Shown here one piece after another: positions 1 to 33,173 of a DNA stretch of 64,000 bases. Made by a program: the position numbers and the translations under genes. Where the stretch lies: the NCBI RefSeq assembly GCF_900104815.1, contig NZ_FNTD01000004.1, positions 6,075,001-6,139,000 on the forward strand, read 5' to 3'. Every line of letters starts with the position of its first letter. Within the stretch, counting starts at the first letter, position 1. Below the pieces are notes generated by a model. That model was not told where the DNA came from and made no database searches. It worked only from the letters and a program-made list of their open reading frames with translations. The DNA is from Streptomyces misionensis (GTDB lineage: Bacteria > Actinomycetota > Actinomycetes > Streptomycetales > Streptomycetaceae).

Positions 1-270
1 GAATGCCCCGTGGACTGCATCTACGAGGGCCGCCGCGCCCTGTACATCCACCCGGAGGAATGCGTGGACTGCGGCGCCTGCGAACCGGTCTGCCCGGTCG
101 ACGCCATCTACTTCCAGGACGACCTGCCCGAGGAGTGGGGCGACGACCACGCCGCCTCCAACGCCGACTTCTTCGCCGCCCTCGGCTCGCCCGGCGGCGG
201 CAGCGCCATCGGTCCCCAGGACCACGACTCCCCGCTGGTCAGCGGCCTGCCGAAGGGAGTGTCGGCATGA
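1..270 (+). CDS. 7Fe/4Fe-type ferredoxin, 5' end outside window
   Basis: The reading frame is open from the first base and encodes a C-terminal ferredoxin portion. It shows CPVDCIYEG, then [16 protein letters not shown], which is the cysteine pattern of a bacterial FdxA-like ferredoxin (the CxxCxxCxxxCP set is complete; the first cysteines lie outside). The tail is short and acidic, as in actinobacterial FdxA. Its stop overlaps the start of the enoyl reductase by four bases (ATGA, 267-270), so the two are translationally coupled. Inference: it supplies electrons to an iron oxygenase of the cluster, the ferritin-fold diiron protein at 6432 or the P450s. A housekeeping role is less likely given the coupling. 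Confidence 0.85.
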
Positions 271-1034
271 GCGGCATCCTCGCCGGCAAGCGGATCCTGG
301 TCACCGGCGTCGTCACGGACTCCTCCATCGCCTTCCACGCGGCCCGGATCGCGCAGGAGGAGGGCGCCGAGGTGATCCTCACCGGCTTCGGGCGGCTCTC
401 CCTGATCGAGCGGTTCGCGCAGAAGCTGCCCAAGCCCGCCCCCGTGCTCGAACTGGACGTCACCGACCAGGACCACCTGGACACCCTCGCCGAGCGGGTC
501 GGCGTCCACGCCGACGCCCTCGACGGCGTGGTGCACTCCATCGCCTACGGCCCCCAGGGCGCCTTCTCCTTCCTCGACGGCACCTGGGACGACGTGTCGA
601 CGGCCGTGCACGTCTCGGCGTACTCCCTCAAGTCCCTGACCACGGCCTGCCTGCCGCTGCTGAAGAAGCGCGGCGGTTCGGTCGTCGGCCTCACCTTCGA
701 CGCGGCCGTGGCCTGGCCGCACTACGACTGGATGGGCGTCGCCAAGGCCGCCCTGGAGTCCACCAGCCGCTATCTCGCCCGCGACCTCGGCGGGTTCGGC
801 ATCCGCTGCAACCTGGTCGCGGCCGGGCCGCTGCGCTCCATGGCCGCCAAGTCCATCCCCGGCTTCGGCGAGCTGGCCGACGTCTGGACCACCGACCGGG
901 CCCCGGCCGGCTGGGACCTCACCGACCCCGACCCGGCCGCCCGCGGGGTCGTCGCCCTGCTGTCGGACTTCTTCCCGCGCACCACGGGCGAGATCGTCCA
1001 CGTGGACGGCGGGGTGCACATGACCGGCGCCTGA
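267..1034 (+). CDS. Enoyl-ACP reductase, FabI/InhA type
   Basis: A 255-residue short-chain dehydrogenase. The N-terminus reads [20 protein letters not shown], the dinucleotide loop typical of FabI/InhA, where the glycine motif is replaced by GVxTDx[16 protein letters not shown] matches the Y-x6-K catalytic pair in InhA form, and the [19 protein letters not shown] segment is the InhA substrate-loop region. The family reduces trans-2-enoyl-ACP with NADH. Start chosen at 267 because the ATG overlaps the ferredoxin stop. With the KAS III, KAS II and ACP encoded on the other strand (3942-6435), it could complete a dedicated fatty-acyl assembly line. An alternative is a duplicate enzyme giving protection against a fatty-acid-synthesis inhibitor. 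Confidence 0.88.
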
Positions 1035-1044
1035 GCGCGCACAC

Positions 1045-1085
1045 GGGAAGGGGGCGGAAGCCGGACCGGCTTCCGCCCCCTTCCC
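1045..1085. terminator. Strong bidirectional hairpin terminator
   Basis: A perfect 20-bp inverted repeat (1045-1064 with 1066-1085) separated by one base lies in the 58-bp gap between the convergent fabI-like and serS-like genes. Streptomycete terminators often lack a long U tract, so a stem of this strength between converging genes is most simply a shared terminator. Confidence 0.85.
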
Positions 1086-1092
1086 GCATGTC

Positions 1093-2370
1093 TCACTCGG
1101 TCGCGCCACCCGGCAGGATCCGCCGGAACCCGGTGTACGGCACCAGCGCCTGCGGCAGCAGCACCGAACCGTCGTCCTGCACGCCCTGCTCCAGCAGCGC
1201 GGCCACGGTCCGCCCGATCGGCAGCGCCGAACCGTTGAGCGTCGCGGCCGGCGTCTTGCGGCCGTCGGCCCGCTTGACCCGGATGTCCGCGCGGCGCGCC
1301 TGGAAGGTGCCGCAGTCGGAGACCGAGGAGATCTCCCGGAAGGCGTCGCCGCCCGGCAGCCACACCTCGATGTCGTACGTCATCCGCGCCGAGAAGCCCA
1401 TGTCGCCCGCGGGCAACAGCACCGTACGGAAGGACAGTTCGAGCCTGCGCAGGCACTCCTCCGCATGCCCGACCATCAACTCCAGTTGCTCCTGGGCCTG
1501 TTCCGGGGCGCAGACGCGCACCAGCTCCACCTTCTCGAACTGGTGCAGCCGCAGCACGCCCCGGGTGTCGCGGCCGTACGCCCCCGCCTCCGCGCGGAAG
1601 CAGGGGGTGCGGGCGGTGAACGCGTACGGCAGGGCCCGCGCGTCCAGCAGCTCGCCGGCCACCAGATTGGTCAGGGGCACCTCGGCGGTCGGGATCAGGA
1701 ACAGCTCCCGCTCGCCCACCTGGGTGCGGAACAGGTCCTCCTCGAACTTGGGCAGCTGGCCGGTGCCGGTCATGGTGTCCCGGCCGACCAGGAACGGCAC
1801 CGACTGCTCGGTGTAGCCGTGCTCCCGGGTGTGCAGATCGAGGAAGAAGTCGGCGAGGGCGCGCTCCAGGCGGGCCCCGGCGCCGTGCGCCACGCTGAAC
1901 CGGGCACCGGACAGCTTCGCCGCGGCGGGCGCGTCCAGGATGCCGAGGGCCTCGCCGATCTCCGCGTGGTGCCGGGCCCCGGCGGCCGGACGCGGCGCGG
2001 GGCCGCCCCGCCGCACCTCCACGGCCTCCTTCTCCGAGTCGCCGTCCGGGACGCCGTCCAGCGGCAGGTTGGGTATCCCGAGCAGCAGCTCGGTCAGCTC
2101 GCCCGCGGCCGTCCGGGCGACGGCCTCCGCCCGCTGCACCTCGGCCCGCAGCGCCCGGGCCGCCTCCTTCTCGGCCTCGCTGGGCGGGCCCGAACGGCGG
2201 GCCTTCGCCGTCCGGTTCAGCTCCGTGCGCAGCCGGGTCACCTCCGCGTTGGCGGCCGAACGGGCACCGACCGCGCCGGAGACGGCCGCCAGGTCGAGGT
2301 CGTAACGGCGGCGGGCCAGGCGCCGGACGGCGTCCTGGCCGGCGTCGATCAGCTCATTGGGATCGTGCAT
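1093..2370 (-). CDS. Seryl-tRNA synthetase, cluster-associated (VlmL-like)
   Basis: A 425-residue class II synthetase. Residues about 1-110 are the long antiparallel coiled-coil arm. Motif 2 appears as CFRAEAGAYGRDTRGVLRLHQ followed by FEKVE, and motif 3 as NGSALPIGRTVAALLE, all in SerRS form. The N-terminus (MHDPNELIDAG) and arm differ from my recollection of the usual streptomycete housekeeping SerRS, suggesting a second, specialised copy. The ATG at 2370 lies inside the end of the permease gene (17-bp overlap), so it belongs to the leftward cluster operon. In valanimycin biosynthesis the extra SerRS VlmL makes seryl-tRNA that donates serine to an alkylhydroxylamine. The same role is inferred here. 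A resistance copy against a SerRS inhibitor is the alternative. Confidence 0.9.
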   Translation of the reverse strand: MHDPNELIDAGQDAVRRLARRRYDLDLAAVSGAVGARSAANAEVTRLRTELNRTAKARRSGPPSEAEKEAARALRAEVQRAEAVARTAAGELTELLLGIPNLPLDGVPDGDSEKEAVEVRRGGPAPRPAAGARHHAEIGEALGILDAPAAAKLSGARFSVAHGAGARLERALADFFLDLHTREHGYTEQSVPFLVGRDTMTGTGQLPKFEEDLFRTQVGERELFLIPTAEVPLTNLVAGELLDARALPYAFTARTPCFRAEAGAYGRDTRGVLRLHQFEKVELVRVCAPEQAQEQLELMVGHAEECLRRLELSFRTVLLPAGDMGFSARMTYDIEVWLPGGDAFREISSVSDCGTFQARRADIRVKRADGRKTPAATLNGSALPIGRTVAALLEQGVQDDGSVLLPQALVPYTGFRRILPGGATE

Positions 2371-3835
2371 GGCGGTCTCCTGACGGGGCGGGGGAGGGGG
2401 CGGTGAGCGGTCCGGCGGCGGTGTGCCGGGTGCCGAGCAGCCGGTAGCGCAGCGGGTGCGCGGTGCGCAGCCGCAGCGCGTACACCAGGCCGCCGAGCGC
2501 CACCAGCGGCAGCAGCCAGGGCAGTGCGGCGATCACCTCGGAGGGGGAGCCGGTGAGCATGTCGAAGTTGCCGACCACCAGCCAGACGGAGGCGGCGAGC
2601 CCGGCGAAGCCCAGCAGCGGGGCGAGGGTCTCCCGCCACCAGTGCCCCCGGCCGGCGCGCAGCCGCAGCCCGAGCACCGACAGCGCGGCCAGCGCCTGCA
2701 ACGAGACGATGCCCAGGGTGCCGAGACCCAGCATGCTGGTGGTCAGGTCGGCGTACGGGTCCAGGCCCGCGAGCGCGAACCCGGCCAGCACCAGCGCGGT
2801 CACCACGCTCTGCGCGACGCTCGCCCGGTGCGGGGAGCGGTGCCGGGTGTGCTCGGCGGCCAGCGGGTGCGGCAGCAGCCCGTCCGCCGCGAGCACCTGG
2901 GCGTAGCGGTTGGCGGCGCTGTGCAGCGCCAGCGTCGCCGCGAACAGGCTGGTGCACAGCAGGACCTGGAGCATGGTGCTGCCCGCGGTGCCCAGGAAGT
3001 CGTCGCCGAGCCCGAAGAACAGGTCGCCCATCTGCTTGCCCGCGACCTCCCGCACCCGGTCCTGGCCGATCGCGCCCACCGCCAGCCAGCTGGTCAGCGC
3101 GTAGAAACCGGCGATCAGCGCGGCGGCCGCGTACGTGGCCCGGGGCACGCTGCGCTTCGGGTCGCGGGCCTCCTTGCCGTACAGCGCCGCCGACTCGAAC
3201 CCGATGAAGGACACGAACGCGAACATCAGCGAGACGCCGACGCCCGGGCCCATGGCCGTGTGCGGGGAGAACGAGGCGGCGGGCAGCGCGTGCACCCCGT
3301 GCCGGACGAGGATCGCCACGTCCAGCGCCGCCAGCACCCCGATCTCGCCCAGCATCAGCAGGGCCAGCACCCGGGCGCTGAGCGCGATCTCGCGGTAGCC
3401 GAGCACCGCGGTCAGCAGCAGCCCGACCGCCGCGCACCACTCCCACGGCACGGTCAGGCCGTGGGCGGCCAGCACCAGCCGGGTGAAGTAGCCGAGCGCG
3501 CCGGCCAGTCCGATGGTCGCGCAGTTGTAGGACAGCAGGGCCAGATACCCGGCCGCGACCGCGGGCGGCCGCCCGAGCCCGTCGGCCACGGACGCGTAGA
3601 AACCGCCGGACCCTCCGGTGCGGCGCGCGCTGACCGCGTACCCGGCCGAGAAGCACAGCAGCGTCACCCCGGCGAACAGGAACGCGGCCGGCACCCCGGC
3701 CCCGTCGCCGAAGGCGAACGCGAGCGGGACCGTGCCGACCATGGCGGACAACGGCGCCGCCGCGGCGACGATCAGAAAGAGGATGTGCGCGGTACCGAGC
3801 CGCCCCGGGACGGGCGGCGAGCCACTGGTGGACAT
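2354..3835 (-). CDS. APC-family amino acid permease
   Basis: 493 residues with about 12 hydrophobic segments. The opening helix LFLIVAAAAPLSAMVG and the following GTVPLAFAFGDGAGVPA, with FIGFESAALYGKEARDPKR further on, are hallmarks of APC-superfamily importers. Start ATG 3835 has a GGAG site six bases upstream. The 3' end overlaps serS by 17 bp. Co-transcription with a seryl-tRNA synthetase suggests it imports the amino acid that is consumed, probably serine, but substrate cannot be read from sequence. Export of a product is possible but less typical for the family. Confidence 0.85.
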   Translation of the reverse strand: MSTSGSPPVPGRLGTAHILFLIVAAAAPLSAMVGTVPLAFAFGDGAGVPAAFLFAGVTLLCFSAGYAVSARRTGGSGGFYASVADGLGRPPAVAAGYLALLSYNCATIGLAGALGYFTRLVLAAHGLTVPWEWCAAVGLLLTAVLGYREIALSARVLALLMLGEIGVLAALDVAILVRHGVHALPAASFSPHTAMGPGVGVSLMFAFVSFIGFESAALYGKEARDPKRSVPRATYAAAALIAGFYALTSWLAVGAIGQDRVREVAGKQMGDLFFGLGDDFLGTAGSTMLQVLLCTSLFAATLALHSAANRYAQVLAADGLLPHPLAAEHTRHRSPHRASVAQSVVTALVLAGFALAGLDPYADLTTSMLGLGTLGIVSLQALAALSVLGLRLRAGRGHWWRETLAPLLGFAGLAASVWLVVGNFDMLTGSPSEVIAALPWLLPLVALGGLVYALRLRTAHPLRYRLLGTRHTAAGPLTAPSPAPSGDRHARSQ

Positions 3836-3941: not shown

Positions 3942-5162
3942 TTACGCCGGTGCGATGGCCAACGCGGTGTTCTGGCCGCCGAAACCCAGCGAATTGCTCA
4001 GCGCAAGGTCGACCGGCATCTCGATGAGGGACTGGGCCAACTTGATCTCCATCCGGGGGTCCGGCATCACCAGGTTGGCCGTGGGCGGGATGACTTCGTG
4101 CTCCACGCTGAGCACGGCGAACGCGGCCTCCACCGCTCCCGCCGCGCCGAGCAGGTGCCCGGTGACCCCCTTCGTGGACGTCACCACCGGATCCCCGCGC
4201 AGGGTCCGCTGGATCATCCGGGCCTCGGACAGATCGTTGAGCGGGGTCGACGTGCCGTGCGCGTTCACGTGCTGCACGTCGTCCGGATCGGCCCCCGCGT
4301 CGGCGAGCGCCGCGCGGACCGCCGCCTCGATGCCGGCGCCGTCGGGATGCGGCGACGTCATGTGGTGGGCGTCGGCCGTCGCGCCGTACCCGATGATCCG
4401 CCCGTGGACGTGCGCACCACGGGCACGCGCGTCCGCGACACGCTCCATCACCAGGATTCCGGCGCCCTCGCCGGCCACGAACCCGTCCCGGTCGACATCG
4501 AACGGGCGGGACGCGCGGGCCGGTTCGTCGTGCCGCTTCGACAGCGCGCCCATCTGGGCGAACCCGGCCATGACCAGGGGGGTGATCATGGCCTCGCTGC
4601 CACCCGCGAGCACGATGTCGCAGCGGCCGAGGGCCAGCAGGTCCCGGGCGGTGCCGATGGCCGTCGCGCCGGACGCGCACGCGGTGGCCACCACCAGATT
4701 GGGTCCGGTCGCCCCGAACTCGATGGCCGTCTGACCGGCCAGCATGTTCGGCAGCTGCATCGGCAGCAGCAGCGGCGACACACGGTCGGCGCCCTGCTCG
4801 CGCAGCACATGGTGCTGTTCCTCGACCGTGCCCGGACCGCCGTCGGCGCAACCGAGGACCACGCCCACCCGCGCGCCGTCCCAGGTCTGCGGGTCCAGGC
4901 CCGCGTCGGCCACCGCCTCGTGCGCGGCGACCAGCGCGAACTGCACGAACCTGTCGAGGCGGTGGGCCCGCCGCGCGCTGAGCAGGGTCTCGGGGTCGAA
5001 GCCGGGCACCCGGCAGGAGATCTGTACGGGGTTGTCGGCCAGCACCGGATCGAGGGCCGCGGCCGGCCTGCCGTCGCAGACCGCCGCCCAGCTCGGCCCG
5101 ACCCCGATCCCGCCGGGGGTGACCAGACCGAGCCCGGTGACGGCGATGTCCATCCCGGCCAT
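3942..5162 (-). CDS. Beta-ketoacyl-ACP synthase II (FabF type)
   Basis: 406 residues of thiolase-fold condensing enzyme. The Cys-His-His triad is intact: ATACASGATA carries the nucleophile, VNAHGTSTPLND the first histidine and KGVTGHLLGAAG the second, and NSLGFGGQNTAL is the C-terminal loop. It elongates acyl-ACP with malonyl-ACP. ATG 5162 shares its A with the stop of the upstream ACP gene (TGATG), so ACP and KAS are coupled. It is an active single KAS rather than a KS-alpha/CLF pair, which points to a fatty-acid-like chain rather than an aromatic polyketide. Confidence 0.92.
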   Translation of the reverse strand: MAGMDIAVTGLGLVTPGGIGVGPSWAAVCDGRPAAALDPVLADNPVQISCRVPGFDPETLLSARRAHRLDRFVQFALVAAHEAVADAGLDPQTWDGARVGVVLGCADGGPGTVEEQHHVLREQGADRVSPLLLPMQLPNMLAGQTAIEFGATGPNLVVATACASGATAIGTARDLLALGRCDIVLAGGSEAMITPLVMAGFAQMGALSKRHDEPARASRPFDVDRDGFVAGEGAGILVMERVADARARGAHVHGRIIGYGATADAHHMTSPHPDGAGIEAAVRAALADAGADPDDVQHVNAHGTSTPLNDLSEARMIQRTLRGDPVVTSTKGVTGHLLGAAGAVEAAFAVLSVEHEVIPPTANLVMPDPRMEIKLAQSLIEMPVDLALSNSLGFGGQNTALAIAPA

Positions 5163-5392
5163 CAGACCTTCGCGCTCCGCTCCTCCATGAGCCGGACCAT
5201 GTCGGCCACGGTCTCGGCCTCCAGGAGGTCGTCGTCGCTGACGTCCAGGTCCAGCTCGGACTTCAGCAGCAGCGACAGCTCCACCACGGCCAGCGAATCC
5301 AGCTCGATGTCCTCCCGGGTGGCGTCGGGGGTGATGGCCTCGGGCGACACCTTGAGCTTGTTGGACAGGATTTCCTTGAGCTGCTCCAGCAT
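5162..5392 (-). CDS. Acyl carrier protein
   Basis: 76 residues, the usual ACP length. The phosphopantetheine site is Ser33 in the motif IELDSLAVVEL, followed by the acidic recognition helix. The start at 5392 is preceded by AAAGGA. It sits between KAS III (upstream) and KAS II (downstream, overlapping), forming a minimal discrete fatty-acid synthase unit within the cluster. Confidence 0.93.
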   Translation of the reverse strand: MLEQLKEILSNKLKVSPEAITPDATREDIELDSLAVVELSLLLKSELDLDVSDDDLLEAETVADMVRLMEERSAKV

Positions 5393-5427: not shown

Positions 5428-6435
5428 TCAGATGGTTTGCAGCTCGGGCCAGACGACGGTGGCCGCGCCCCAGGAGAGCCCGCCGCCGAAGGCGGTGAGC
5501 AGCACCCGGTGTCCGGCGGCGAGCCGGCCCTCGGCGGTGGCCTCGGCGAGCAGCAGCGGGATCGACGCGGCCCCGGTGTTGCCGACCCGCTCGATGTTGC
5601 TGAGGCGCCGCTCCGCCGGAATGCCCAGCCGGTCCGAGACGGCCTCCAGGATCCGGGCGTTGGCCTGGTGGGCCACGAACCGGTCGACGTCGTCCAGACG
5701 CCAGCCGGCCCGCTCGGCGGCCTCGGTGGACGTGCTGGTCATGTGCTCCACCGCGTGCCGGTAGGTGTCCCGGCCGAGCATCTGGAAGTAGTGGTCCTCC
5801 GGGGCGGCCGGGCGGCCCGACGAGCGCTGCCGAGAGCCGCCCGCCGGTACCTCGATCAGATGGCTCAGCTCGCCGTCGCTGCCGAGCACCAGCGGTCCGA
5901 TCGCGCCGGGCTCGTCCGGCGAACCGGCCCGCAGCACCACCGCGCCCGCACCGTCGGCGAAGATCACCGCGGTGGTGCGGTCCTCCGGGTTGATGATCGT
6001 GGTGAAGGCGTCGGCGGCGATCAGCAGCACGCTGTCGGCGACCCGGGCCGCGATCAGCCCGGCGGCGGACGCGAGGCCGTACAGGAACCCGGAGCAGACG
6101 GCCGCCACGTCGAAGGCGGGCACCTGTCCGAGCCCCAGCCGCGCGGCCACCTGCGGAGCGGTCGCCGGGCACGGCTGGTCCGGGGTGGTGGTGGCCAGCA
6201 CCACCGCGCCCACCTGCTCGTCGCCCGCCGACTTCAGCGCCCTCAGGCCCGCCTCCACCGCCAGGTCGCCGGTGGAGGTGCCGGGGGTGATCACGTACCG
6301 TCCGGCGATGCCGGTACGGCTGCGGATCCAGGCGTCGGAGGTGTCCAGGCGCTGCGACAGGTCGTCGTTGGTGACGAGGTTGGGCGGGACGTACGATCCG
6401 ATCCCGGTGACGACGGCGGCCCGCCCGGTGCTCAT
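5428..6435 (-). CDS. Beta-ketoacyl-ACP synthase III (FabH type)
   Basis: 335 residues. The N-terminus MSTGRAAVVTGIGSYVPPN and the motif DTSDAWIRSRTGI are typical of FabH. The triad is complete: AAVCSGFLYGL (Cys), VAHQANARI (His) and ERVGNTGAASIPLLL (Asn). FabH primes chain synthesis by condensing an acyl-CoA with malonyl-ACP. In streptomycetes the starter is often branched, so iso- or anteiso-chains are possible here. The ATG overlaps the stop of the diiron-protein gene by four bases (ATGA, 6432-6435). Confidence 0.92.
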   Translation of the reverse strand: MSTGRAAVVTGIGSYVPPNLVTNDDLSQRLDTSDAWIRSRTGIAGRYVITPGTSTGDLAVEAGLRALKSAGDEQVGAVVLATTTPDQPCPATAPQVAARLGLGQVPAFDVAAVCSGFLYGLASAAGLIAARVADSVLLIAADAFTTIINPEDRTTAVIFADGAGAVVLRAGSPDEPGAIGPLVLGSDGELSHLIEVPAGGSRQRSSGRPAAPEDHYFQMLGRDTYRHAVEHMTSTSTEAAERAGWRLDDVDRFVAHQANARILEAVSDRLGIPAERRLSNIERVGNTGAASIPLLLAEATAEGRLAAGHRVLLTAFGGGLSWGAATVVWPELQTI

Positions 6436-7412
6436 GCGCCGGCCTCCGAGGAGAGGACCTCGACGGGCAGGCCCATGTACTCCATGCGGACCTCGGCCAT
6501 CTCGTCGGTCCACCGCTCGGCCATGTCGTAGCGCTGCTCGGCGGTGGTGTCGAGGAGCCGGACACCGGGCCACACCTCGTAGTCGCCGATCAGGTCGGCG
6601 TGCGCGAACATGCCTTCCTGGAACAGCTCCTCGCGGTGGATGACGAACTCCCGGTCCGGGATCTCGTCCCACAGCTTCACGCCCGAGCGCAGGATCTCCA
6701 GCAGCCGCGGGGTGTACTCCGGGTGCCGGATCACGTGGTCGCGCAGGATGGTGCTGGCGACGGTGAGGTGGCGGATCTCGTCGATGGCGGTGCCCCGGGA
6801 GATCTCGCCGGTCGCCGGGGACAGCGGGGTCCACTTGCGCTCGCTGAGTTCGGCGGCGGGGGCGAGGACGCCCTCGATGATGATGGCGAACACGCCGACG
6901 CCGCCGGGGAAGTCGGCCTTGTCGCGGACGATGTCCAGGGTGAAGTCCACCACCGGGTCCAGGACCCGCTTGCGGTAGTCCCGGGCCATCTCCTCGATGT
7001 CCTTCAGCAGGGTGGTCTGCGGGATGCCCAGGTCCACCAGGTGCTGGCGGAAGACGCGGGCGTGCCGCGCCTCGTCGATCAGCTGGGTGGCGTAGAACTC
7101 CATCTCGGGGATGCCGGGTGCGATGGTCACGTAGTGGCCGAGCAGCCGGGTGGCCAGTTCCTCGGAGAGGGCCCGGAAGCCGAACTCCAGGATCAGCGCG
7201 TCGCGCAGCGGGCCGGGGGCCTTCAGGAAGTCGGGGGTGACGGCGTTCACGTGGTGGCCGGTGGCACCCCGGTCGCGCAGGGTGCCCTGGGCGACGGAGG
7301 TGAACCAGTACGCGAGGTCGCACTCCTCGGGACCGAGGGTGAGTTCCTTCGCGCCGTCCAGCAGACCGGGTGCCTTGTCCCAGTCCGCCTCGGGGGCAAC
7401 GGGTGCGGTCAT
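6432..7412 (-). CDS. Ferritin-fold nonheme diiron protein, VlmB-like
   Basis: 326 residues, mostly helical. Two carboxylate/histidine pairs look like diiron ligands: FYATQLIDEARHARVFRQH (E/D-x-x-R-H class, EARH) and GTAIDEIRHLTVAS (DEIRH). Upstream acidic residues in LILEFGFRALSEELATRLL could supply the first-helix ligands. This is the ferritin-like oxygenase pattern of the AurF/VlmB kind. It is coupled by ATGA overlaps on both sides, to flavin reductase and to KAS III, so it is integral to the pathway. VlmB is implicated in forming the azoxy group of valanimycin. A matching oxidation of a hydrazine intermediate is inferred from the neighbouring VlmO-, VlmL-, VlmJ- and VlmK-like genes. Confidence 0.75.
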   Translation of the reverse strand: MTAPVAPEADWDKAPGLLDGAKELTLGPEECDLAYWFTSVAQGTLRDRGATGHHVNAVTPDFLKAPGPLRDALILEFGFRALSEELATRLLGHYVTIAPGIPEMEFYATQLIDEARHARVFRQHLVDLGIPQTTLLKDIEEMARDYRKRVLDPVVDFTLDIVRDKADFPGGVGVFAIIIEGVLAPAAELSERKWTPLSPATGEISRGTAIDEIRHLTVASTILRDHVIRHPEYTPRLLEILRSGVKLWDEIPDREFVIHREELFQEGMFAHADLIGDYEVWPGVRLLDTTAEQRYDMAERWTDEMAEVRMEYMGLPVEVLSSEAGA

Positions 7413-7957
7413 GATGCGGCGGTCTCCTTCGCCGGACGCAGGGAACCGGCGTACAGCCCGCCGGTGTAGCTGAACAGCGGCAGGCCCTCGTCCGCGGTGG
7501 CCCGGACGACATGGCCGAGCAGCAGCTCGCTGTCGCCCGCGGCGTGCGCGGAGTGGAACCGGCAGACGTAGTGGGCGAGCGCGCCCGCGATCAGCGGGGC
7601 CTGGGCGTACCGGTCGGTGGTCCAGGCGAGGCCGGCGAAGGCCGCGCTGCCGTCGGGCCGCGAGCTGTCCGCGAACCGCCGTGCCACGTCGGCCTGTTCA
7701 CCGCCGAGCACATTGATCGCGAACCGGCCCTCGCGGGCGGCGAGCCGGGCGAAGGACGAGCCCGCCCGCAGCACCACCCCGACCAGCAGGGGCGAGCGCG
7801 ACACCAGGGTGACGGTGCTCGCGGTGGTGCCGTGCATCCGTTCCTCGGGGCCCGTGGTCAGCACGGACACCGGGGAGGCCAGGTGGTACAGGGCCCGCCG
7901 GCGTTCGGCCGGGTCCTGACGCACCGCCCGGCGCACCGGGGTCGCGGCGGTGGTCAT
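7409..7957 (-). CDS. Flavin reductase, HpaC/VlmR type
   Basis: 182 residues of the flavin reductase-like (FMN-binding split barrel) domain. Recognisable parts are HLASPVSVLTTGPEERMHGTT, SRSPLLVGVVLRAGSSFARL and REGRFAINVLG. Start ATG 7957 overlaps the stop of the VlmO-like gene (ATGA), which removes a longer out-of-context N-terminal extension in the same frame. Such enzymes deliver reduced flavin to two-component monooxygenases. The likely partner is the acyl-CoA-dehydrogenase-fold protein at 10335, matching the VlmR/VlmH pair of valanimycin. The luciferase-like protein at 20949 is another candidate. Confidence 0.9.
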   Translation of the reverse strand: MTTAATPVRRAVRQDPAERRRALYHLASPVSVLTTGPEERMHGTTASTVTLVSRSPLLVGVVLRAGSSFARLAAREGRFAINVLGGEQADVARRFADSSRPDGSAAFAGLAWTTDRYAQAPLIAGALAHYVCRFHSAHAAGDSELLLGHVVRATADEGLPLFSYTGGLYAGSLRPAKETAAS

Positions 7958-8487
7958 CGCACGGCCTCCGTCTCGCGTACGACGGGACGCGCGGGGACGT
8001 GGCCGACCGGCGCCGGGTCCATCTCGTGCCCGACCGGCTTGGGGTGGGGCAGGCCCAGGTCGTCCAGGAGGTTCAGGTAACCCACCTGGCGCACCGGCTC
8101 GAAGGGCAGCGCGAAGGACTTCATGAAGTTGCCGAACAGGCCGCGGTCGCCGAAGAGGTGGAACGGCAGCACCAGCAGCGCCCACTCCGGCTTGACCAGC
8201 CAGCACCACAGCGCGGCGACGACGCCCTGCGTGATGAGGCTGTGCATGACGTTGTACAGGACGTAGTACGCCTTGTGGATCGGCCGTCCGCCGCTCTTGC
8301 GGAAGGCGATGGCGCCGGGAATGTAGCCGATCAGGTCGATGTAGAGGAACAGTCCGAGCGCCGGCAGCCAGCGGATGTCGCCGAAGTGGTAGACGATCAT
8401 GCCCGTGGTGACGGCGAGGCCCACCAGGTACTCGGCGCGGTGCAGCGAGTAGGTGCGTGGGGTCTCGAAGGGGTTCGCCTGGTCCAT
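7954..8487 (-). CDS. VlmO-like integral membrane protein, putative metal oxidase
   Basis: 177 residues with three to four membrane segments (about 20-34, 41-60, 75-98 and 100-112). Conserved-looking potential metal ligands lie at the helix ends: His16 and Glu19, His34 and Asp37 (YHFGD), Asp51, His71, His82, and His110 with Asp114 (FHLFGD). This histidine/acid distribution resembles membrane diiron enzymes, although the classic three-box HxxHH pattern is absent. A small membrane protein of this kind, VlmO, accompanies VlmB in valanimycin clusters. Family assignment is from memory of that cluster plus context. A good Shine-Dalgarno (AAGGAG) precedes ATG 8487. Confidence 0.6.
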   Translation of the reverse strand: MDQANPFETPRTYSLHRAEYLVGLAVTTGMIVYHFGDIRWLPALGLFLYIDLIGYIPGAIAFRKSGGRPIHKAYYVLYNVMHSLITQGVVAALWCWLVKPEWALLVLPFHLFGDRGLFGNFMKSFALPFEPVRQVGYLNLLDDLGLPHPKPVGHEMDPAPVGHVPARPVVRETEAVR

Positions 8488-24483: not shown

Positions 24484-24521
24484 GGCTGCAACCGAAAGAA
24501 CTCAGCCAACCGGAGGCAATA

Positions 24522-26182: not shown

Positions 26183-26319
26183 GGCGCCACGACGTCCGCG
26201 CACGGCTCGGAGGGACGAATTCCCCTTGCCGCCCGCGCGGATGGCCCCCCATCGTGTCGAGCACAGGAAGCGAGTCGGTGCCGAGGATCGCCTTTGCCCC
26301 CCGGACCTGGAGGACAAGC

Positions 26320-27528
26320 ATGTCGCTCGCCGACCACACCGACATCCTCGACTGGCCCTTCGCCCGTACCGAGGACGGCAACCCGCCGCCCGTCCTGGCC
26401 GAGCTGCGCAAGGCACCGCCCTGCGTCGTCCGCATCCCGGCGGGCGCCGCGGAGTCCCGGCTGGCCTGGCTCGTGACCCGGTACGCCGACGTCCGCCAGG
26501 CGCTCGCCGATCCCCGGCTCAGCGCCGACGAGACCCTGCCCGGCGCCCCCGTGCGCATCCAGGTGCCGCCCGGCGGCAACCCCAGCTCGTTCCTGCGGCT
26601 CGACGACCCCGAGCACGCCCGGCTGCGCGGCATGATCCAGACCGAGTTCACCGCGCGCCGGGTCAAGCGGCTGCGCGAGCCCGTCCAGCGCCTGGTGGAC
26701 GAACTGCTGGACGACCTTGCCGCCCGGCCCCAGCCCGCCGACCTGCACGCCGTCTTCTCCCGGGCGCTGCCCACCCTCGTCATCGCCCGGCTGCTGGGCG
26801 TGCCCGAGGAGGACTCGCCGTTCTTCATCGAGAAGACCCGCGTCACCATCTCCCAGGAGGACCCGGCCGTCTCCCAGGCCGCCTTCGCCGAGATGTCCGA
26901 GTACCTCGCCAAGCTGGCGCTGCGCAAGCTCACCGAACCCGGTGACGACCTGATGAGCCGGCTCGCCGTCCGCCACTACGACACCGGCGCCATCACCCTG
27001 GACGAACTCGTGGGCATCGCCCGGCTCGTGCTGGTCGCCGGCCACGAGACCACCACCAACCAGCTCGCCCTGAACGTGCTGGCCCTGCTGCGCGACGACG
27101 AGCTGCGGGCGAAGGTCGCCGCCGACGACGGGGCACTGATCCCCAACTTCATCGAGGAGTCGATGCGCTACTGGTCCATCTCCCAGGACGCCATGGTCCG
27201 CCTCGCGGTCGAGGACATGGACCTGGGCGGCGTGCGCATCGAGAAGGGCGACGCCGTGGTGATCTCGGTGCCCGCCGGCAACCACGACGAGACCGTCTTC
27301 GCCTGCCCGCACCGCATCGACCCCGAACGCGACACCAGCGGTCACCTCCAGTGGGGCTACGGCCCCCACTACTGCCAGGGCGCCCCGCTGGCCCGCCTCG
27401 AAATGGAGCTGGCGCTGCGCTCGCTGCTGCGCCGCTTCCCGGACCTGCGCCTCGCCGCCGACCCGCGCACGCTGTTCCGCCGGGGCACCGTTTTCCACGG
27501 GGTGACCCATCTCCCCGTGACCTGGTGA
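26320..27528 (+). CDS. Cytochrome P450, second of a pair
   Basis: 402 residues. The I-helix is VLVAGHETTTNQ, ExxR is EESMRYWS, and the haem loop is WGYGPHYCQGAPLAR, where the residue after the Cys ligand is Gln rather than the more usual Pro of its partner. ATG 26320 follows TGGAGG; longer in-frame starts lack a ribosome site. It heads an operon with the second MFS gene and the hydrolase. It is a paralogue of the P450 at 24522, and two related P450s suggest two oxidations at similar sites. Confidence 0.92.
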   Translation: MSLADHTDILDWPFARTEDGNPPPVLAELRKAPPCVVRIPAGAAESRLAWLVTRYADVRQALADPRLSADETLPGAPVRIQVPPGGNPSSFLRLDDPEHARLRGMIQTEFTARRVKRLREPVQRLVDELLDDLAARPQPADLHAVFSRALPTLVIARLLGVPEEDSPFFIEKTRVTISQEDPAVSQAAFAEMSEYLAKLALRKLTEPGDDLMSRLAVRHYDTGAITLDELVGIARLVLVAGHETTTNQLALNVLALLRDDELRAKVAADDGALIPNFIEESMRYWSISQDAMVRLAVEDMDLGGVRIEKGDAVVISVPAGNHDETVFACPHRIDPERDTSGHLQWGYGPHYCQGAPLARLEMELALRSLLRRFPDLRLAADPRTLFRRGTVFHGVTHLPVTW

Positions 27529-27578: not shown

Positions 27579-29045
27579 ATGACTCAGGAGTTAACCCCGG
27601 ACATCGCGGCGGAGGGGCGCGAGCGGACGGCCTCCGACAGCGCCGCGGCCCCCTCGTCGGGCGCCCTGGTGGTGGTCCTCGTCGGCACGTTCATCACGGT
27701 GCTCGACTTCTTCATCGCCAACGTGGCCGTCCCGGCCATCAAGGCCGACCTGCACGCCACCGCCGCCCAGGCCCAGATGATCGTCGTCGGATACGGCGTC
27801 GCCTTCACCTCGGGCCTGATCACCGGCGGCCGGCTCGGCGACCTCTACGGCCGGCGGCGGCTGTTCGCGCTCGGCATGACGCTGTTCATGGTCGCCTCGG
27901 CCGCGTGCAGCTTCGCGCCGAACGTGACGGTGCTCGTCGTCGCCCGGATCCTCCAGGGCGGCTCCGCCGCGCTGATGGTGCCCCAGGTCCTCGGCATCAT
28001 CGGCACCGTCTACACCGGGACGGCCCGCGACCGCGCCTTCAACGTCTACGGCCTGGTCATCGGACTCGCCGGGGTCTTCGGACAGTTCATCGGCGGCGCG
28101 CTGATCTCCGTCGACATCGCCGGACTCAGCTGGCGCACGATCTTCCTGATCAACGTCCCGCTGTGCCTGATCTCCCTCGCCCTGACCCGCCGCACGATCC
28201 CGGAGTCCAAGGGCCAGGGCGGCACCCGGCTCGACCTGGTCGGCGCCCTGCTGATCACCGTGTCCCTCGGGCTCGTGGTGTTCGCGCTGCTGGAGGGCCA
28301 GGAGCGGCACTGGCCGGTGTGGGTGTGGGAGTCGCTGGCCGCCGCGGCCGTCCTGCTCGCCGTGACGGTCTGGCACCTGCGCCGCCGCTCCGCCGCCGGC
28401 CGCGGCCCGCTCATCGAGCCGGGCATGTTCCGCTCCCGGCTGTTCTCGGTGGGCCTCGTCGCCACGGTCGTCTACTTCCTCGCCATGGGCTCCTTCTTCT
28501 TCACCCTCGCCCTCTACCTGCAACTCGGCCGTGGCCTCAGCCCGTTGGAGTCCGGTCTGATGTTCCTGGCGCTGGGCGCCGGATACTTCGGCGCCTCCAT
28601 CGTCTCGGCGCGGTTCGCCGCCACGGTCAACGCCCGCCGGGTCGCCGCCGGTCCGCTGGTCCTCGCCATCGGCTACACCGCGATCGCGCTGACCGCCAAG
28701 GACCTGCGACTGGACGGCTCCGTGCTCTGGCTGCTGCCGATGCTGCTGGTCGCCGGGCTCGGCATGGGCCTGACCACCGGCCCGCTCACCAACCTGGTGC
28801 TGGGCGGCGCGGTCCCCGAGCACGCCGCGGCGGCCTCCGGTCTGCTGAACACCGCGCAGGAGGGCGGCGCCGCGGTCGGCGTGGCCATCGCCGGCACGGT
28901 CTTCTTCCCGGCCCTGGCCCACGCCGGCGGCAAGGCGGACGCCTACCCGCACGCCTTCACCGTCACCCTGATCCCGCTCGTCTGCCTGGGCGTCCTCGCC
29001 TCCCTGCTGGTGCTGGCGGCCCCCGGCCGCGCGGCCCGGCGCTGA
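27579..29045 (+). CDS. MFS drug:H+ antiporter, DHA2 family, with TTA codon
   Basis: 488 residues and 14 membrane segments. The motif GGRLGDLYGRRR and FITVLDFFIANVAVPAIK in helix 1 are as in the exporter at 22900, so these are paralogues. Codon 5 is TTA (27591-27593), read in Streptomyces only by the bldA leucyl-tRNA, so translation should be delayed to late growth. It sits 50 bases after the second P450 and shares its promoter. The likely role is product export and self-protection. Confidence 0.9.
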   Translation: MTQELTPDIAAEGRERTASDSAAAPSSGALVVVLVGTFITVLDFFIANVAVPAIKADLHATAAQAQMIVVGYGVAFTSGLITGGRLGDLYGRRRLFALGMTLFMVASAACSFAPNVTVLVVARILQGGSAALMVPQVLGIIGTVYTGTARDRAFNVYGLVIGLAGVFGQFIGGALISVDIAGLSWRTIFLINVPLCLISLALTRRTIPESKGQGGTRLDLVGALLITVSLGLVVFALLEGQERHWPVWVWESLAAAAVLLAVTVWHLRRRSAAGRGPLIEPGMFRSRLFSVGLVATVVYFLAMGSFFFTLALYLQLGRGLSPLESGLMFLALGAGYFGASIVSARFAATVNARRVAAGPLVLAIGYTAIALTAKDLRLDGSVLWLLPMLLVAGLGMGLTTGPLTNLVLGGAVPEHAAAASGLLNTAQEGGAAVGVAIAGTVFFPALAHAGGKADAYPHAFTVTLIPLVCLGVLASLLVLAAPGRAARR

Positions 29046-29114: not shown

Positions 29115-29945
29115 ATGCCGTACCTCACCACCCGGGACGGGACCCGGCTGCACTACAACGACTGGGGTGACGGACGCCCCGTCGTCCTGCTCGGCGCCGC
29201 CATGGCGGACGCGCGCATGTGGGAGTTCCAGGCCCCGTTCCTCGCCGGGAACGGACTGCGCTGCGTCACCTACGACCGGCGCGGCAGCGGCCGTTCGGAC
29301 ATGCCGTGGACCGGATACGACTACGACACCCTGGCCGGCGACCTCGCCGACCTGCTCGACCACCTCGACCTGAGGGACGCCGTGCTGGTCGGCTACGCGG
29401 TGGGCGGCGGGGAGTGCGTGCAGTACCTCTCCCGGTACGGCGACGCACGCGTCTCGGGCCTCGCCCTGGTCGCCTCGACCACGCCGTACCTGCTGCGCGC
29501 CCCGGACAACCCCGACGGGCTCGACCTCGCCCTCTTCGAGCAGGTCGAACAGGCCATCAAGACCGACCGGGCCGCCTGGCTCTCCGCGCTGACATGGCCG
29601 TTCTTCGCGGGCCCCGAACCGGACCCGGAGAACCCGCCGATCTCCCCGCAGCTGGCGAGCTGGCTGGTCGGCATGTGTCTGAACACCTCGCCGAGAGCCG
29701 GCATCGAGATCTACCGCACGCTGATGACCACCGACCAGCGCGCGCAGACGGCCGCGGTGCGGGTGCCCACCCTGGTGATCCACGGGACCGCCGACCTGGG
29801 CGCCCCCTATCCGCTGTGCGCCCCGCGCACCGTCGAACTGATCCCGGACAGCAGGCTCATCACCTACGAGGGCGCGGCGCACGGCCTGTTCGCCACCCAC
29901 GCGGACCGCCTGAACGCCGATCTGCTGGCCTTCGTCAAGGAGTGA
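29115..29945 (+). CDS. Alpha/beta-hydrolase fold protein lacking the nucleophile
   Basis: 276 residues resembling non-haem haloperoxidase/esterase family members: TYDRRGSGRSDMPW, DLADLLDHLDLRDAVLVG, the acid loop VIHGTADLGAP and the histidine EGAAHGLFATH. The nucleophile elbow that normally reads GxSxGG is VGYAVGGGE, with Ala95 in place of Ser. The oxyanion-hole HG near residue 26 is also changed (LLGAAM). It should not act as a standard hydrolase. A lyase, cyclase or binding role is more likely. AAAGGAGG precedes ATG 29115. It is the last gene of the P450-MFS operon. Confidence 0.85.
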   Translation: MPYLTTRDGTRLHYNDWGDGRPVVLLGAAMADARMWEFQAPFLAGNGLRCVTYDRRGSGRSDMPWTGYDYDTLAGDLADLLDHLDLRDAVLVGYAVGGGECVQYLSRYGDARVSGLALVASTTPYLLRAPDNPDGLDLALFEQVEQAIKTDRAAWLSALTWPFFAGPEPDPENPPISPQLASWLVGMCLNTSPRAGIEIYRTLMTTDQRAQTAAVRVPTLVIHGTADLGAPYPLCAPRTVELIPDSRLITYEGAAHGLFATHADRLNADLLAFVKE

Positions 29946-30148: not shown

Positions 30149-31099
30149 ATGGCAGACACCGCAGCCCCGGGCCCCACCCGGGCACTCGTCCTGGGCAACC
30201 CCGCTTCCGGCAGCCACTCGCCCGAACTGGTCGAGGAAGTACGCCAGTTGTGCGCCTCCTGCCTGGAGCGGGCCGAGGTCCACCTGACCACGGGACCGGG
30301 CGACGCGACGGTCGCCGTACGCCGGGCCCTGGAACGCACCGACGACGCGCCCGACCTGATCGTGGCCATCGGCGGCGACGGCACGGTCCGCGAGGTCGTG
30401 CAGGGACTGGTCCCCGCCGACGGCGGCGCCACCCTCGCGGTGGTGCCCGGCGGCACCGGCAACTCCGGCTACAAGATGCTGTGGGGCGAACGGCCCTGGA
30501 GCGAGTCGCTGAAGGCCGTGCTGACCGACTCCGGCGTCGGCGGCAGCGCCCGGCTGCGCCGGCTCGACCTGGCCCGCCTCGCCGAGACCCGCAACTACGT
30601 GTACCTGGGCGCCTGTTCGGGCGTCATCGCGGACGCACTGCTCACCGCGAAGGGGCTGCCGCTGACCGGCCGCGAGCGCTACGCCCGCGCCTTCGCCGAC
30701 ACCGCCGACGGCTACGCGCCCTACCCCGGCCGGGTCACGGTCGACGGCCGGGTGGTGCACGAGGGCCCCACGGTCCTCGCCAACGTCGGCGGCGGACCCT
30801 ACCGCGGCGGCCGGTTCCAGGTGCTGCCCGACTCGCTCCTCGACGACGGACTGCTCGACGTCTGTGTCATCGGCGGCGACGTGCCGGCCGCCGAGGTACC
30901 CGAACTGACCCTGAACGCCGCCCACATGACCCATCCGGCGACCGTGTACGCACGGGGCCGCCGGATCACCGTGGAACGCACCGACGGCCGCCGCCTCCCG
31001 CTGGAGCACGACGGTGAGTACCAACACGGCATCGGCGCCGCGGCCACCTTCGAGGTGCTCCCCGGAGCCCTCCCCGTGTGGGCGCCTGCCGCCCCCTGA
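30149..31099 (+). CDS. Diacylglycerol/sphingosine kinase-family protein, VlmJ-like
   Basis: 316 residues of the DAGK catalytic fold: ALVLGNPASGS near the N-terminus, the nucleotide motif AIGGDGTVREVVQGL, then VPGGTGNSGYKML and a C-terminal DGEYQHG. GAAGGAG precedes ATG 30149. In valanimycin biosynthesis VlmJ, a member of this family, phosphorylates the hydroxyl of valanimycin hydrate, and VlmK (MmgE/PrpD family) eliminates the phosphate. A MmgE/PrpD gene follows two genes later, so the same activation of a seryl-derived hydroxyl is the favoured role. Lipid phosphorylation is the fallback. Confidence 0.88.
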   Translation: MADTAAPGPTRALVLGNPASGSHSPELVEEVRQLCASCLERAEVHLTTGPGDATVAVRRALERTDDAPDLIVAIGGDGTVREVVQGLVPADGGATLAVVPGGTGNSGYKMLWGERPWSESLKAVLTDSGVGGSARLRRLDLARLAETRNYVYLGACSGVIADALLTAKGLPLTGRERYARAFADTADGYAPYPGRVTVDGRVVHEGPTVLANVGGGPYRGGRFQVLPDSLLDDGLLDVCVIGGDVPAAEVPELTLNAAHMTHPATVYARGRRITVERTDGRRLPLEHDGEYQHGIGAAATFEVLPGALPVWAPAAP

Positions 31100-31150: not shown

Positions 31151-31519
31151 ATGAGCGACCTGACCACCACCGTCACCCGCTACCTCGACATCTGGAACGA
31201 GGCGGACGCCGAGAAGCGCGCCGCGGCCATCGCCGAGCTGTTCACCGCCGACGCCCCGTACATCGACCCGCTGGCCGCGGTCGAGGGTCACGAGGGTTTC
31301 GCGGCCGTGGTGGCCGGCGCCCGTGACCAGTTCAAGGGCCTCTCCTTCGAGCTGCACGGCACCGTCGACGCCCACCACAACCAGGCCCGCTTCCAGTGGG
31401 GCCTGGTGACCGAGCCGGGCGCCGAGCCGGTCGCCATCGGCTTCGACGTCCTCGTCACCGACGAGGCCGGCAAGATCAAGGCCGTCTACGGCTTCCTGGA
31501 CAAGGTCCCGGCCGCGTAA
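31151..31519 (+). CDS. NTF2/SnoaL-like small protein
   Basis: 122 residues: TVTRYLDIWNEADAEKRAAA, ELFTADAPYIDP, EGHEGFAAVV and HNQARFQWGLV are the conserved parts of the cone-shaped NTF2-like fold common in polyketide-cyclase-like and unknown-function proteins. AAGGAG precedes ATG 31151. It lies 51 bases after the kinase gene in the same unit. It may bind a small hydrophobic intermediate. No specific catalytic residues can be assigned. Confidence 0.8.
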   Translation: MSDLTTTVTRYLDIWNEADAEKRAAAIAELFTADAPYIDPLAAVEGHEGFAAVVAGARDQFKGLSFELHGTVDAHHNQARFQWGLVTEPGAEPVAIGFDVLVTDEAGKIKAVYGFLDKVPAA

Positions 31520-31533
31520 CACCGCACCACCCC

Positions 31534-31564
31534 GCGGGAGCACCGGGCCCACCGGTGCTCCCGC
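31534..31564 (+). terminator. Hairpin terminator before the PrpD gene
   Basis: A perfect 13-bp stem (31534-31546 with 31552-31564) with loop GCCCA lies 14 bases after the NTF2-like stop. The PrpD gene starts 40 bases later with no visible SARP repeats, so it is either transcribed by read-through or from a promoter I cannot recognise. Confidence 0.8.
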
Positions 31565-31604
31565 CGTCGTGTTCCCCTCGACGCACGCACGGAAGGTACC
31601 CGCC

Positions 31605-33173
31605 ATGACCGCCGTCCTCGCGGAGAGCGTCGCCCGGGCGCTGTGCGCCGACTGGGCCGAACAGGCCCAGGTCTCGTCCCGGACCGCCCACGGCTCCGCC
31701 GGCGCGGACACCCCGCTGCGCGAACTCTCTCACTGGGCCGCCACCTTGCGGCCGCAGGCCATCCCGTGCCGGGTGCTCAAGCTCGCCGCGAGCCAGGTGC
31801 TGTCGCAGATCGCCTCCATCCGCGCCGGACTCCAGCACCCGCTCGGCCGCAAGCTGGTGGCCGCCTTCGGGCACCCCATGCAGCGCGACCCCCGGCAGGC
31901 CGCCGGCGTCTTCGCCGCGCTCGGCTCCTGGCTCAACCTCGACGACACCGCGTACGCCGGACACCTGTCCAACTCCACCGTCGCCGTCCCGCTCGCCTTC
32001 GCCTACGCCCGCCGCCTGGACGGCCTGTCCCTGCTGACCTCGGTGGTCGTGGCCAACGAGTGCGCGGCCCGCATCACCGCCTCCGCGACCCTCGGCCCGC
32101 TGCGCGGCCAGAGCGCCGTGCACACCCACCTGGCCGGCGCGGTCGCCGGCCGGCTGCACTGCGACCGGGCCCCGGCGAGCCTGTACGAGAACGCCTTCGG
32201 GCTGGCCTTCGCCATGCCCAACTGGCCCCTGATGCGCGCCTTCCTGGCCAGCGACGCCCGGCTGTTCAACACCTTCACCCCGGTGCGCACGGCGATGGAC
32301 GCCTGCGACGCGGCCTACGCGGGGCTGCGCGGGGCGCCCGACATCATGGAGCACAGCGACGGCTTCCTCGCCCGCTTCGCCACCGTGCCGCTGCCGCAGG
32401 CGGTCGCCAAGGGCCTCGGCCGCCGCTGGCACACCGACACCCTCTCCTTCAAGATGCACCCCGGCGGACCCGGCATCGACGCGGCCGTGGACTGCGCCGC
32501 CGAGATCCACCGCGAACTGGGCCCGCTGCGACCGCGGGACGTCGCCGAGGTCGTGGTGGAGGCGTCCCTCTACACCCTGTTCGCGGGGGAGCGGGCCGCC
32601 GCCTACGTCACCGGCCCCGGCTCCCCGCTCGGCGCACTGGTCCTCGACGTCCCCTACCCCGTGGCCACCACCCTGCTCACCGGCGAGTTCTCGGTGGACG
32701 ACTTCTCCTCCCCGCACGTGGACGACCTCGACCGCTGGGCCCTGGCCAAGCGGATCCGGCTGGAGCACGACACCGAGATGACCCGCGAACTCTTCCTGTC
32801 CGACGCCCCGTTCGGCGAGGCGGTGCGGGAGGCGGGCGACCTGGCCGTGCCGTGGCTGCGCGGCTTCGGCGGCGACGAACTCGTGGACCTGGTGGGTGCG
32901 GCACGGGCCGACGACCGCGACTTCTCCCGCTCCACCAAGGCCACCGGCGCCCGGGTCACCGTCCGCCTCACCGACGGCCGCGTCGTCTCCCGCACCCGGC
33001 TGATCCCGGTCGGCGCCGCGGGCCCGGAGACCCGCGCCCACCACACCGACCTGGTCCGCGAGAAGTTCCTCGCGGTGGGCGGCCCCCAGGAGGTCGCCGA
33101 CACGGTGGACCGCCTCCACCGGATGCGCCCGCGGGCGGTACGCCGGTGGATCGAGACGGCGTTCCTGGACTGA
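31605..33173 (+). CDS. MmgE/PrpD-family dehydratase, VlmK-like
   Basis: 522 residues. Recognisable MmgE/PrpD parts include the N-terminal helical domain with LSHWAATLRPQAIPCRVLKLA, the mid-segment RWHTDTLSFKMHPGGPGIDAAVDCAAEIHRE and a C-terminal GARVTVRLTDGRVVS. PrpD itself dehydrates 2-methylcitrate, whereas VlmK of this family completes the dehydration of phosphorylated valanimycin hydrate. Pairing with the VlmJ-like kinase at 30149 supports elimination of a phosphorylated seryl hydroxyl to give an alkenyl (acrylate- or vinyl-type) group. GGAAGG precedes ATG 31605. It is the last recognisable gene of the cluster on this side. Confidence 0.88.
   Translation: MTAVLAESVARALCADWAEQAQVSSRTAHGSAGADTPLRELSHWAATLRPQAIPCRVLKLAASQVLSQIASIRAGLQHPLGRKLVAAFGHPMQRDPRQAAGVFAALGSWLNLDDTAYAGHLSNSTVAVPLAFAYARRLDGLSLLTSVVVANECAARITASATLGPLRGQSAVHTHLAGAVAGRLHCDRAPASLYENAFGLAFAMPNWPLMRAFLASDARLFNTFTPVRTAMDACDAAYAGLRGAPDIMEHSDGFLARFATVPLPQAVAKGLGRRWHTDTLSFKMHPGGPGIDAAVDCAAEIHRELGPLRPRDVAEVVVEASLYTLFAGERAAAYVTGPGSPLGALVLDVPYPVATTLLTGEFSVDDFSSPHVDDLDRWALAKRIRLEHDTEMTRELFLSDAPFGEAVREAGDLAVPWLRGFGGDELVDLVGAARADDRDFSRSTKATGARVTVRLTDGRVVSRTRLIPVGAAGPETRAHHTDLVREKFLAVGGPQEVADTVDRLHRMRPRAVRRWIETAFLD

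Follow-up and report, generated by a model that had tools for sequence, protein, structure and literature searches.

The window analysed here is a 64,000-nucleotide stretch of Streptomyces misionensis (genome G000, contig 4, 6,075,001–6,139,000). It contains the greater part of a gene cluster that, judged by its enzymes, very probably makes an azoxy (N–N) antibiotic. The cluster spans about 40 kb, from 12.6 kb in the 20 kb upstream of the window (locus L009) to 33.2 kb in the window itself, so that about 7 kb of it precedes window base 1. In the upstream part lie genes for the VlmA homologue and a fatty-acid desaturase, together with a SARP regulator, an MFS transporter and the beta subunit of an acyl-CoA carboxylase. 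The right edge was placed after VlmK, where genes for a GntR/UTRA regulator and for uptake (a binding protein, a permease and GH3) start (window 33337–39182). A first-pass annotation had grouped Vlm-like genes with those for beta-ketoacyl synthases (KAS) III and II, an acyl carrier protein (ACP), FabI, a polyketide synthase (PKS), an AMP-ligase, an aldehyde dehydrogenase (ALDH)-type reductase and an aminotransferase. Translations and family searches confirmed that these genes occur together (Table 1), but the list had omitted a luciferase-like oxidoreductase (LLM) and a type II thioesterase within the window. The VlmA, desaturase, SARP, MFS and carboxylase genes to its left were outside the sequence given to that annotation.

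The azoxy core

In valanimycin biosynthesis, VlmH/R carries out N-hydroxylation, VlmA seryl transfer and VlmO hydrazine formation, VlmB converts the hydrazine to the azoxy group, VlmJ phosphorylates and VlmK dehydrates (PMC9379638; PMC11705231). Counterparts of VlmA, VlmB, VlmO and VlmR are clearly recognizable in the cluster by sequence. The VlmO-like protein gave no match in a Pfam search at 0.001; its D51, H82, H110 and D114, the residues that a review names as essential in VlmO (PMC11705231), have the same numbering and are invariant across a 34-row alignment. Its predicted structure, with a mean predicted local distance difference test score (pLDDT) of 66.8, was not used. The VlmB-like protein scores under the Pfam AurF cut-off, and the sole distinct PDB sequence that it matched is 6d9f, 'Putative VlmB homolog' (318 residues, E 3.5e-122). 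The VlmO residues, the VlmB match and the VlmA homologue together support the valanimycin-type azoxy pathway that the first-pass annotation proposed for this locus. The seryl-tRNA synthetase (SerRS) shares just 39% and 38% identity with the other two SerRS-like places of the same genome and therefore looks like a dedicated copy. The one at 38%, third of the SerRS-like sequences in that genome when the window's is counted (contig 4, 1218729–1219922), carries a single in-frame TAA within the stretch that was matched. VlmH is the weakest core assignment, made by fold and position alone.

By homology to valanimycin, VlmH/VlmR would hydroxylate an amine, VlmL would charge tRNA(Ser), and the upstream VlmA would form an O-seryl hydroxylamine ester. 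VlmO would then rearrange this ester to a hydrazine, which VlmB would oxidise to the azoxy group. Across 295 Streptomyces genomes, VlmO matches (E 1e-40 or better) were found in 52. These 52 include every one of the 29 genomes in which VlmK was matched at E 1e-100 or better, the two genes lying within 45 kb on one contig in 26 and on different contigs in 3. Much of the gene set and its order was found again in other actinomycetes, and this recurrence, with the constant presence of VlmO in VlmK-bearing Streptomyces genomes, indicates that the genes are not grouped by chance.

Table 1. Genes of the cluster, with window positions (for the VlmA homologue, positions in L009) and the matches on which the names rest.
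Feature	Position	Strand	Evidence
FabI-like enoyl-ACP reductase / short-chain dehydrogenase (SDR)	267..1034	+	PF13561 E 1.1e-62 (scan started at 258)
VlmL-like dedicated SerRS, putative	1093..2370	-	TIGR00414 390.9 bits, above cut-off
Amino-acid permease	2354..3835	-	PF13520
KAS II (FabF-like), chain elongation	3942..5162	-	PF00109/PF02801; PRK07314 450.8 bits, above cut-off; TIGR03150 below
Discrete ACP of fatty-amine block	5162..5392	-	PF00550
KAS III (FabH-like), initiation	5428..6432	-	TIGR00747 311.7 bits, above cut-off
VlmB-like diiron oxygenase, putative hydrazine to azoxy	6432..7412	-	PDB 6d9f; two ExxH stretches shared
VlmR-like flavin reductase	7409..7957	-	PF01613 E 3.6e-31
VlmO-like membrane protein, putative hydrazine synthase (N–N bond)	7954..8487	-	four essential-type residues
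SRPBCC / polyketide-cyclase-like protein, fatty-amine block	8509..8991	-	PF03364
Class III aminotransferase, putative aldehyde to amine	8994..10301	-	PF00202 E 1e-78
VlmH-like flavin N-hydroxylase, putative	10335..11498	-	weak acyl-CoA dehydrogenase fold matches; conserved beside VlmO
ALDH-type reductase, putative acyl to aldehyde	11504..13132	-	PF00171 E 3.3e-62
Loading ACP, PKS block	13279..13587	+	PF00550
Single-module type I PKS	13584..19286	+	KS, AT, degenerate DH, ER remnant, KR, ACP
AMP-dependent acyl ligase, PKS block	19283..20911	+	PF00501 E 1.8e-83
LLM	20949..21947	+	PF00296
Type II thioesterase	21941..22744	+	PF00975 E 1.8e-33
MFS exporter	22900..24378	+	PF07690
Cytochrome P450 a	24519..25730	+	PF00067
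Cytochrome P450 b	26254..27528	+	PF00067
MFS exporter (second)	27579..29045	+	PF07690
Alpha/beta hydrolase	29115..29945	+	PF00561
VlmJ-like diacylglycerol-kinase-fold kinase	30149..31099	+	PF00781 E 3.4e-22, PF19279
SnoaL-like protein	31151..31519	+	PF12680
VlmK-like MmgE/PrpD eliminase	31605..33173	+	PF03972, PF19305; some relatives named 'VlmK-like protein'
VlmA homologue	L009 15823-16830, just left of window		PF09924 E 8.1e-68; aminoacyl-tRNA dependent type

A ferredoxin-like frame in L009, called by eye, reads into the window; a 20-residue piece of it was scanned and gave no match. Both P450 genes invoked earlier for oxidation of the product are in place, but neither is constant (P450 b in 11 and P450 a in 5 of the 33 clusters compared below, at 55% identity or more, window counted) and no site of oxidation is assigned to them.

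Exchange of amine and PKS blocks among VlmO clusters

The comparison covered 33 mapped clusters, namely the window and 32 others. The 32 were picked by hand, hence not at random, to represent groups among 80 loci kept from 205 relatives. Window genes were mapped by tblastn onto the 32 extended loci with per-gene identity floors set by hand. Absence calls cover stretches mostly 30 kb each side of VlmO, and in some cases just 4 to 10 kb on one side. One comparison step took 50 of the 80 loci, and a whole-genome ligase search took 36 of those 50. The K. griseola C30 stretch was dropped from the counts for having no VlmO; in it (L123, contig 30), a VlmK-like protein (47–48%) lies beside a KAS II-like gene, and no VlmO match occurs in 19 kb. 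AMP-ligase identity alone was abandoned as a cluster marker because 53–57% matches occur elsewhere in several genomes, and block order was used instead. We defined two blocks. The fatty-amine block consists of the aminotransferase, ALDH and SRPBCC genes, which KAS II, ACP and KAS III almost always accompany; the PKS block consists of the discrete ACP, PKS, AMP-ligase and thioesterase.

The fatty-amine block was present in 29/33 clusters and the PKS block in 28/33, with both in 24/33. Five clusters had the fatty-amine block alone (S. beigongshangae, S. sp. ISL-43, S. pini, Microbispora oryzae and S. fragilis) and four the PKS block alone (K. griseola, S. tendae, Allorhizocola and S. sp. DH37). 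All four PKS-only clusters encode a pyridoxal-phosphate amino-acid decarboxylase (PF00282), 68–100% identical to the S. tendae copy. This decarboxylase had no match in the remaining 31 of 35 contigs searched, nor in L009 plus the window at E 1e-10, where an aminotransferase and an ALDH are found instead. The whole-genome ligase search at E 1e-110 gave no match in four of the five fatty-amine-only genomes; in S. beigongshangae it found a 55% match on another contig. The amine source is thus swapped between two modules, the fatty-amine block and the decarboxylase, while the PKS block stays. SerRS of the window kind (at least 50% identity) occurs in 16/33 clusters, window counted. The PKS-only clusters had first been labelled KA57-A type, a label dropped once the decarboxylase was found in all four. 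S. tendae has a second VlmO cluster (L166–L168, contig 5) of different make-up. Named by eye, its genes include those for a halogenase-like FAD protein, 2-oxoacid dehydrogenase-like proteins, KS/ACP and a reductase-like SDR, and no called gene there matches the window VlmB, ALDH or AMP-ligase.

Because the PKS block is kept where the decarboxylase replaces the fatty-amine block, the PKS most likely works on the seryl head, lengthening its carboxyl end and not the tail. We consider it reasonably probable that the fatty-acid-type enzymes build the tail while the PKS extends the seryl-derived head, and that the product is a 1-alkenyl-azoxy ketone, perhaps one resembling LL-BH872alpha. For the tail, KAS III, KAS II, ACP and the FabI-like enzyme would assemble a defined acyl chain, which the ALDH would reduce to an aldehyde and the aminotransferase would convert to an alkylamine. 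This agrees with the earlier suggestion that a built acyl chain is reductively released and transaminated to give the amine, as has been proposed for azodyrecins (PMC9379638). The upstream desaturase would place a double bond adjoining the azoxy group, for which the precedent proposed is Ady9.

The first-pass annotation had instead pictured a polyketide-like tail, with the PKS helping to build the acyl chain before reduction and transamination and the head remaining a plain valanimycin-type acrylate. PKS, ligase and fatty-acid genes do lie in one cluster, 6 of 8 related PKSs outside azoxy clusters exceed 2,000 aa and possibly build chains, and VlmJ/VlmK clusters without the PKS block (S. sp. 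ISL-43, S. pini, Mb. oryzae) would yield such an acrylate. However, the two blocks are separable in both directions (PKS block beside the decarboxylase without the fatty-amine block in 4/33, absent beside the fatty-amine block in 5/33), and the window PKS, which looks like a single malonyl extension, has degenerate reductive domains ill-fitted to a reduced alkyl chain. We therefore rejected a tail-building PKS as a working model and regard it as improbable.

PKS domains and proposed editing of the seryl head

In the window PKS, the ketosynthase (KS) triad is intact, as is the malonyl-type motif of the acyltransferase (AT; GHSIG, HAFH). The dehydratase (DH) has lost its histidine, the enoylreductase (ER) lacks the nucleotide-binding part, and the ketoreductase (KR) has Ser in place of Asn at catalytic Tyr+4. 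We take the malonyl AT motif, the DH His and the KR Asn to have the meanings that they have in PKSs generally. With the DH His and ER gone and the KR Asn changed, the PKS is expected to add one malonyl unit and leave a ketone. The AMP-ligase would load the carboxyl of the azoxy acid onto the discrete ACP, the PKS would extend it by one malonyl unit, and the thioesterase would release a beta-keto acid whose decarboxylation would give the ketone.

Among 24 KR-bearing PKSs, the Tyr+4 Asn was lost in 14, all of them in clusters with VlmJ/K and LLM. The Asn keepers comprise 7 from VlmJ/K plus LLM clusters (the Tyr is lost in one) and 3/3 from clusters without VlmJ/K. The idea that LLM-linked PKSs always have a damaged KR proved false, with the Asn kept in 7/21 LLM-linked KRs. 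PKSs of the four decarboxylase-type clusters are about 1,250–1,290 aa long and by alignment KS-AT-DH-ACP, with no KR. In a KS tree that left out three near-copies of the window KS and three long KSs of its own genome, the window KS falls in a 22-row azoxy-cluster clade (support 100/98) that includes all four decarboxylase-type KSs.

VlmJ and VlmK are both present in 25/33 mapped clusters. They would phosphorylate and then eliminate the seryl hydroxyl, and the product is predicted to carry a dehydrated seryl carbon; the pair supports the dehydrated seryl end envisaged at first pass. LLM (at least 50% identity) was found in 21/21 clusters with the PKS block and VlmJ/K and in 1/12 others (S. beigongshangae), counts of clusters that are akin to one another and hence non-independent events. 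One enzyme is in this way tied to both the kinase/eliminase pair and the PKS block. In the 295 genomes LLM was matched 20 times at E 1e-95 or better; in 16 cases VlmO is no more than 45 kb away on that contig, the other 4 matches lie elsewhere in genomes that have VlmO, and none is in a genome without it. The nearest models of LLM are F420-dependent families, below cut-off (TIGR03619 134 bits), and its best PDB match is an F420-dependent dehydrogenase (9fp4), so LLM is probably F420-dependent as well. Its co-occurrence suggests that it would act on the dehydrated, extended head. Three clusters (L034, L055 and L068) have the fatty-amine block and VlmJ/VlmK, with no PKS block or LLM found; these are expected to make long-chain valanimycin-like acrylates.

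A different, jietacin-like fate of the head is conceivable, in which joint loss of CO2 and phosphate from a phospho-seryl acid leaves a vinyl-azoxy group, with the PKS and LLM acting elsewhere, for example on a chain ketone. Kinase and eliminase are indeed both in the cluster, and a jietacin derivative is, by its name in PMC9862604, a vinyl diazene oxide that bears a ketone in its chain. The valanimycin VlmJ/VlmK pair, however, forms an exo-olefin on the seryl unit (PMC9379638), and the literature search gave no jietacin cluster for comparison. We think this route very unlikely.

Extension of the seryl head by the PKS can be taken one step further. The azoxy family may be modular, with the amine source and head editing (PKS block, VlmJ/VlmK and LLM) swapped independently. 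In clusters of the window type, one PKS extension would give the ketone, VlmJ/VlmK would give an exo-methylene ketone, and the F420-type enzyme would reduce the alkene to an alanine-like alpha-methyl azoxy ketone. Such a head would resemble that of maniwamycin, which we take to be an alpha-methyl azoxy ketone. This full scheme is speculative, and we hold it to be rather doubtful as a whole. Separate tail and head blocks, if true, would be useful for making new azoxy compounds, and this logic makes product predictions for the window cluster testable.

Known azoxy systems, a candidate product and PKS relatives

Few azoxy natural products are known, and the majority of VlmA groups are not linked to any known product (PMC9379638). 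That survey counted 179 VlmA/VlmH pairs in 3,146 actinobacterial reference genomes, forming more than fourteen VlmA groups. VlmJ/VlmK, SerRS and KAS III genes lie near VlmA in some of these groups (Choirunnisa 2022, PMC9379638), as they do here, but the main text describes neither the PKS block, nor its exchange with the amine block, nor the LLM link. A partial search of the open literature, with subscription papers outside its scope, found no report of any of the three.

Azodyrecin clusters (ady, azd) share with the cluster described here the dehydrogenase/aminotransferase route proposed for the fatty amine, counterparts of VlmA/B/H/O/R and a desaturase (Ady9) (PMC9379638). They differ in that the fatty acid comes from primary metabolism, the unit transferred is alanyl, there is no aminoacyl-tRNA synthetase and the carboxyl is kept as a methyl ester; the text of PMC9379638 names no PKS. 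With valanimycin (vlm), compared by description, our cluster has in common counterparts of VlmA, B, L, O, R, J and K, a putative VlmH, a serine-derived azoxy unit and its dehydration. The valanimycin amine, in contrast, is isobutylamine from valine and not an assembled chain, and descriptions of that pathway mention neither of the two blocks, nor LLM, nor a desaturase.

The heads of elaiomycin and KA57-A have four carbons, from serine and one acetate carbon. The KA57-A cluster (azx, S. rochei), set beside the window by description, is listed as 'Azoxyalkene and type I PKS' in the excerpt of PMC6662830, where VlmJ/VlmK do not figure in its description. PMC9379638 refers to KA57-A for heads that bear primary and secondary alcohols. 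The same paper lists ketones among azoxy head types, citing maniwamycin and 1969 LL-BH872alpha papers; no cluster for either was found in the literature search. A hydroxylated LL-BH872alpha congener came from S. misionensis, according to the review PMC5315673, which cites McGahren and Kunstmann 1970. The nearest named locus to the window (L010; DNA identity 97.9% over 18.5 kb) belongs to S. misionensis strain 66, which thus has the same cluster, and a single VlmO match was found in its genome and likewise in that of the window. We tentatively offer the window cluster as a possible source of an LL-BH872alpha-type compound, a lead for the azoxy antibiotic that the review reports from this species.

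Several points weigh against the proposed assembly of tail and head and its product. The link to LL-BH872alpha is at species level, not strain level, and second-hand, through the review. None of our loci was recognised as the S. rochei azx cluster, and with the S. tendae VlmO as query S. rochei did not appear among the 120 of 1,228 matches listed, in which organism names are abbreviated. Action of the ALDH on acyl-ACP is assumed. KR degeneration is not universal, the Asn being kept in 10/24 KRs, and 3/25 azoxy-cluster KSs (S. poonensis, S. fumigatiscleroticus and S. viridochromogenes) fall outside the azoxy clade, among non-azoxy-type PKSs. Above all, the PKS family is not azoxy-specific. Close KS matches in the 295 genomes numbered 38, of which 20 share a contig with VlmO at a distance of up to 45 kb; of the other 18, 8 are at other places in genomes that carry VlmO and 10 are in genomes where VlmO had no match at E 1e-40. 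An azoxy-specific KS clade had held against 16 KSs of the window's own genome and failed across the 295. Eight of those 18 places were inspected. An FcoT thioesterase occurs in 3/3 tested (L169, L170, L175) and a TauD dioxygenase in 2/2 tested (L169, L170), and L169 has a ScoE-like dioxygenase of the isonitrile-forming type (PDB 6dch, E 2.4e-138).

The related PKSs at the eight places are 1,035 to 2,159 aa long, and the ACP-PKS-ligase order of the window recurs at several of them. Because this order occurs in clusters with FcoT and ScoE-like/TauD genes, the cassette looks like a general means to elongate an unusual nitrogen-bearing acid. The presence of ligase, discrete ACP and PKS (in some loci with thioesterase) in non-azoxy clusters would also suit a PKS block whose product is a short acyl group of its own, which the alpha/beta hydrolase or the thioesterase could, for example, join to the azoxy core through an ester bond. 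Among the window genes scanned, however, there is no dedicated acyltransferase or condensation enzyme, and the alpha/beta hydrolase (at least 45% identity) was not found in 16/28 PKS-block clusters; we judge a separate acyl group unlikely and prefer extension of the seryl head. At two of the non-azoxy places (L172, 5819–16185; L173, 5169–14796), ACP, PKS, AMP-ligase and type II thioesterase stand with a CoA-transferase family III protein, and a VlmO match is absent within the 20 kb examined. L172 additionally holds a VlmJ-like kinase stretch.

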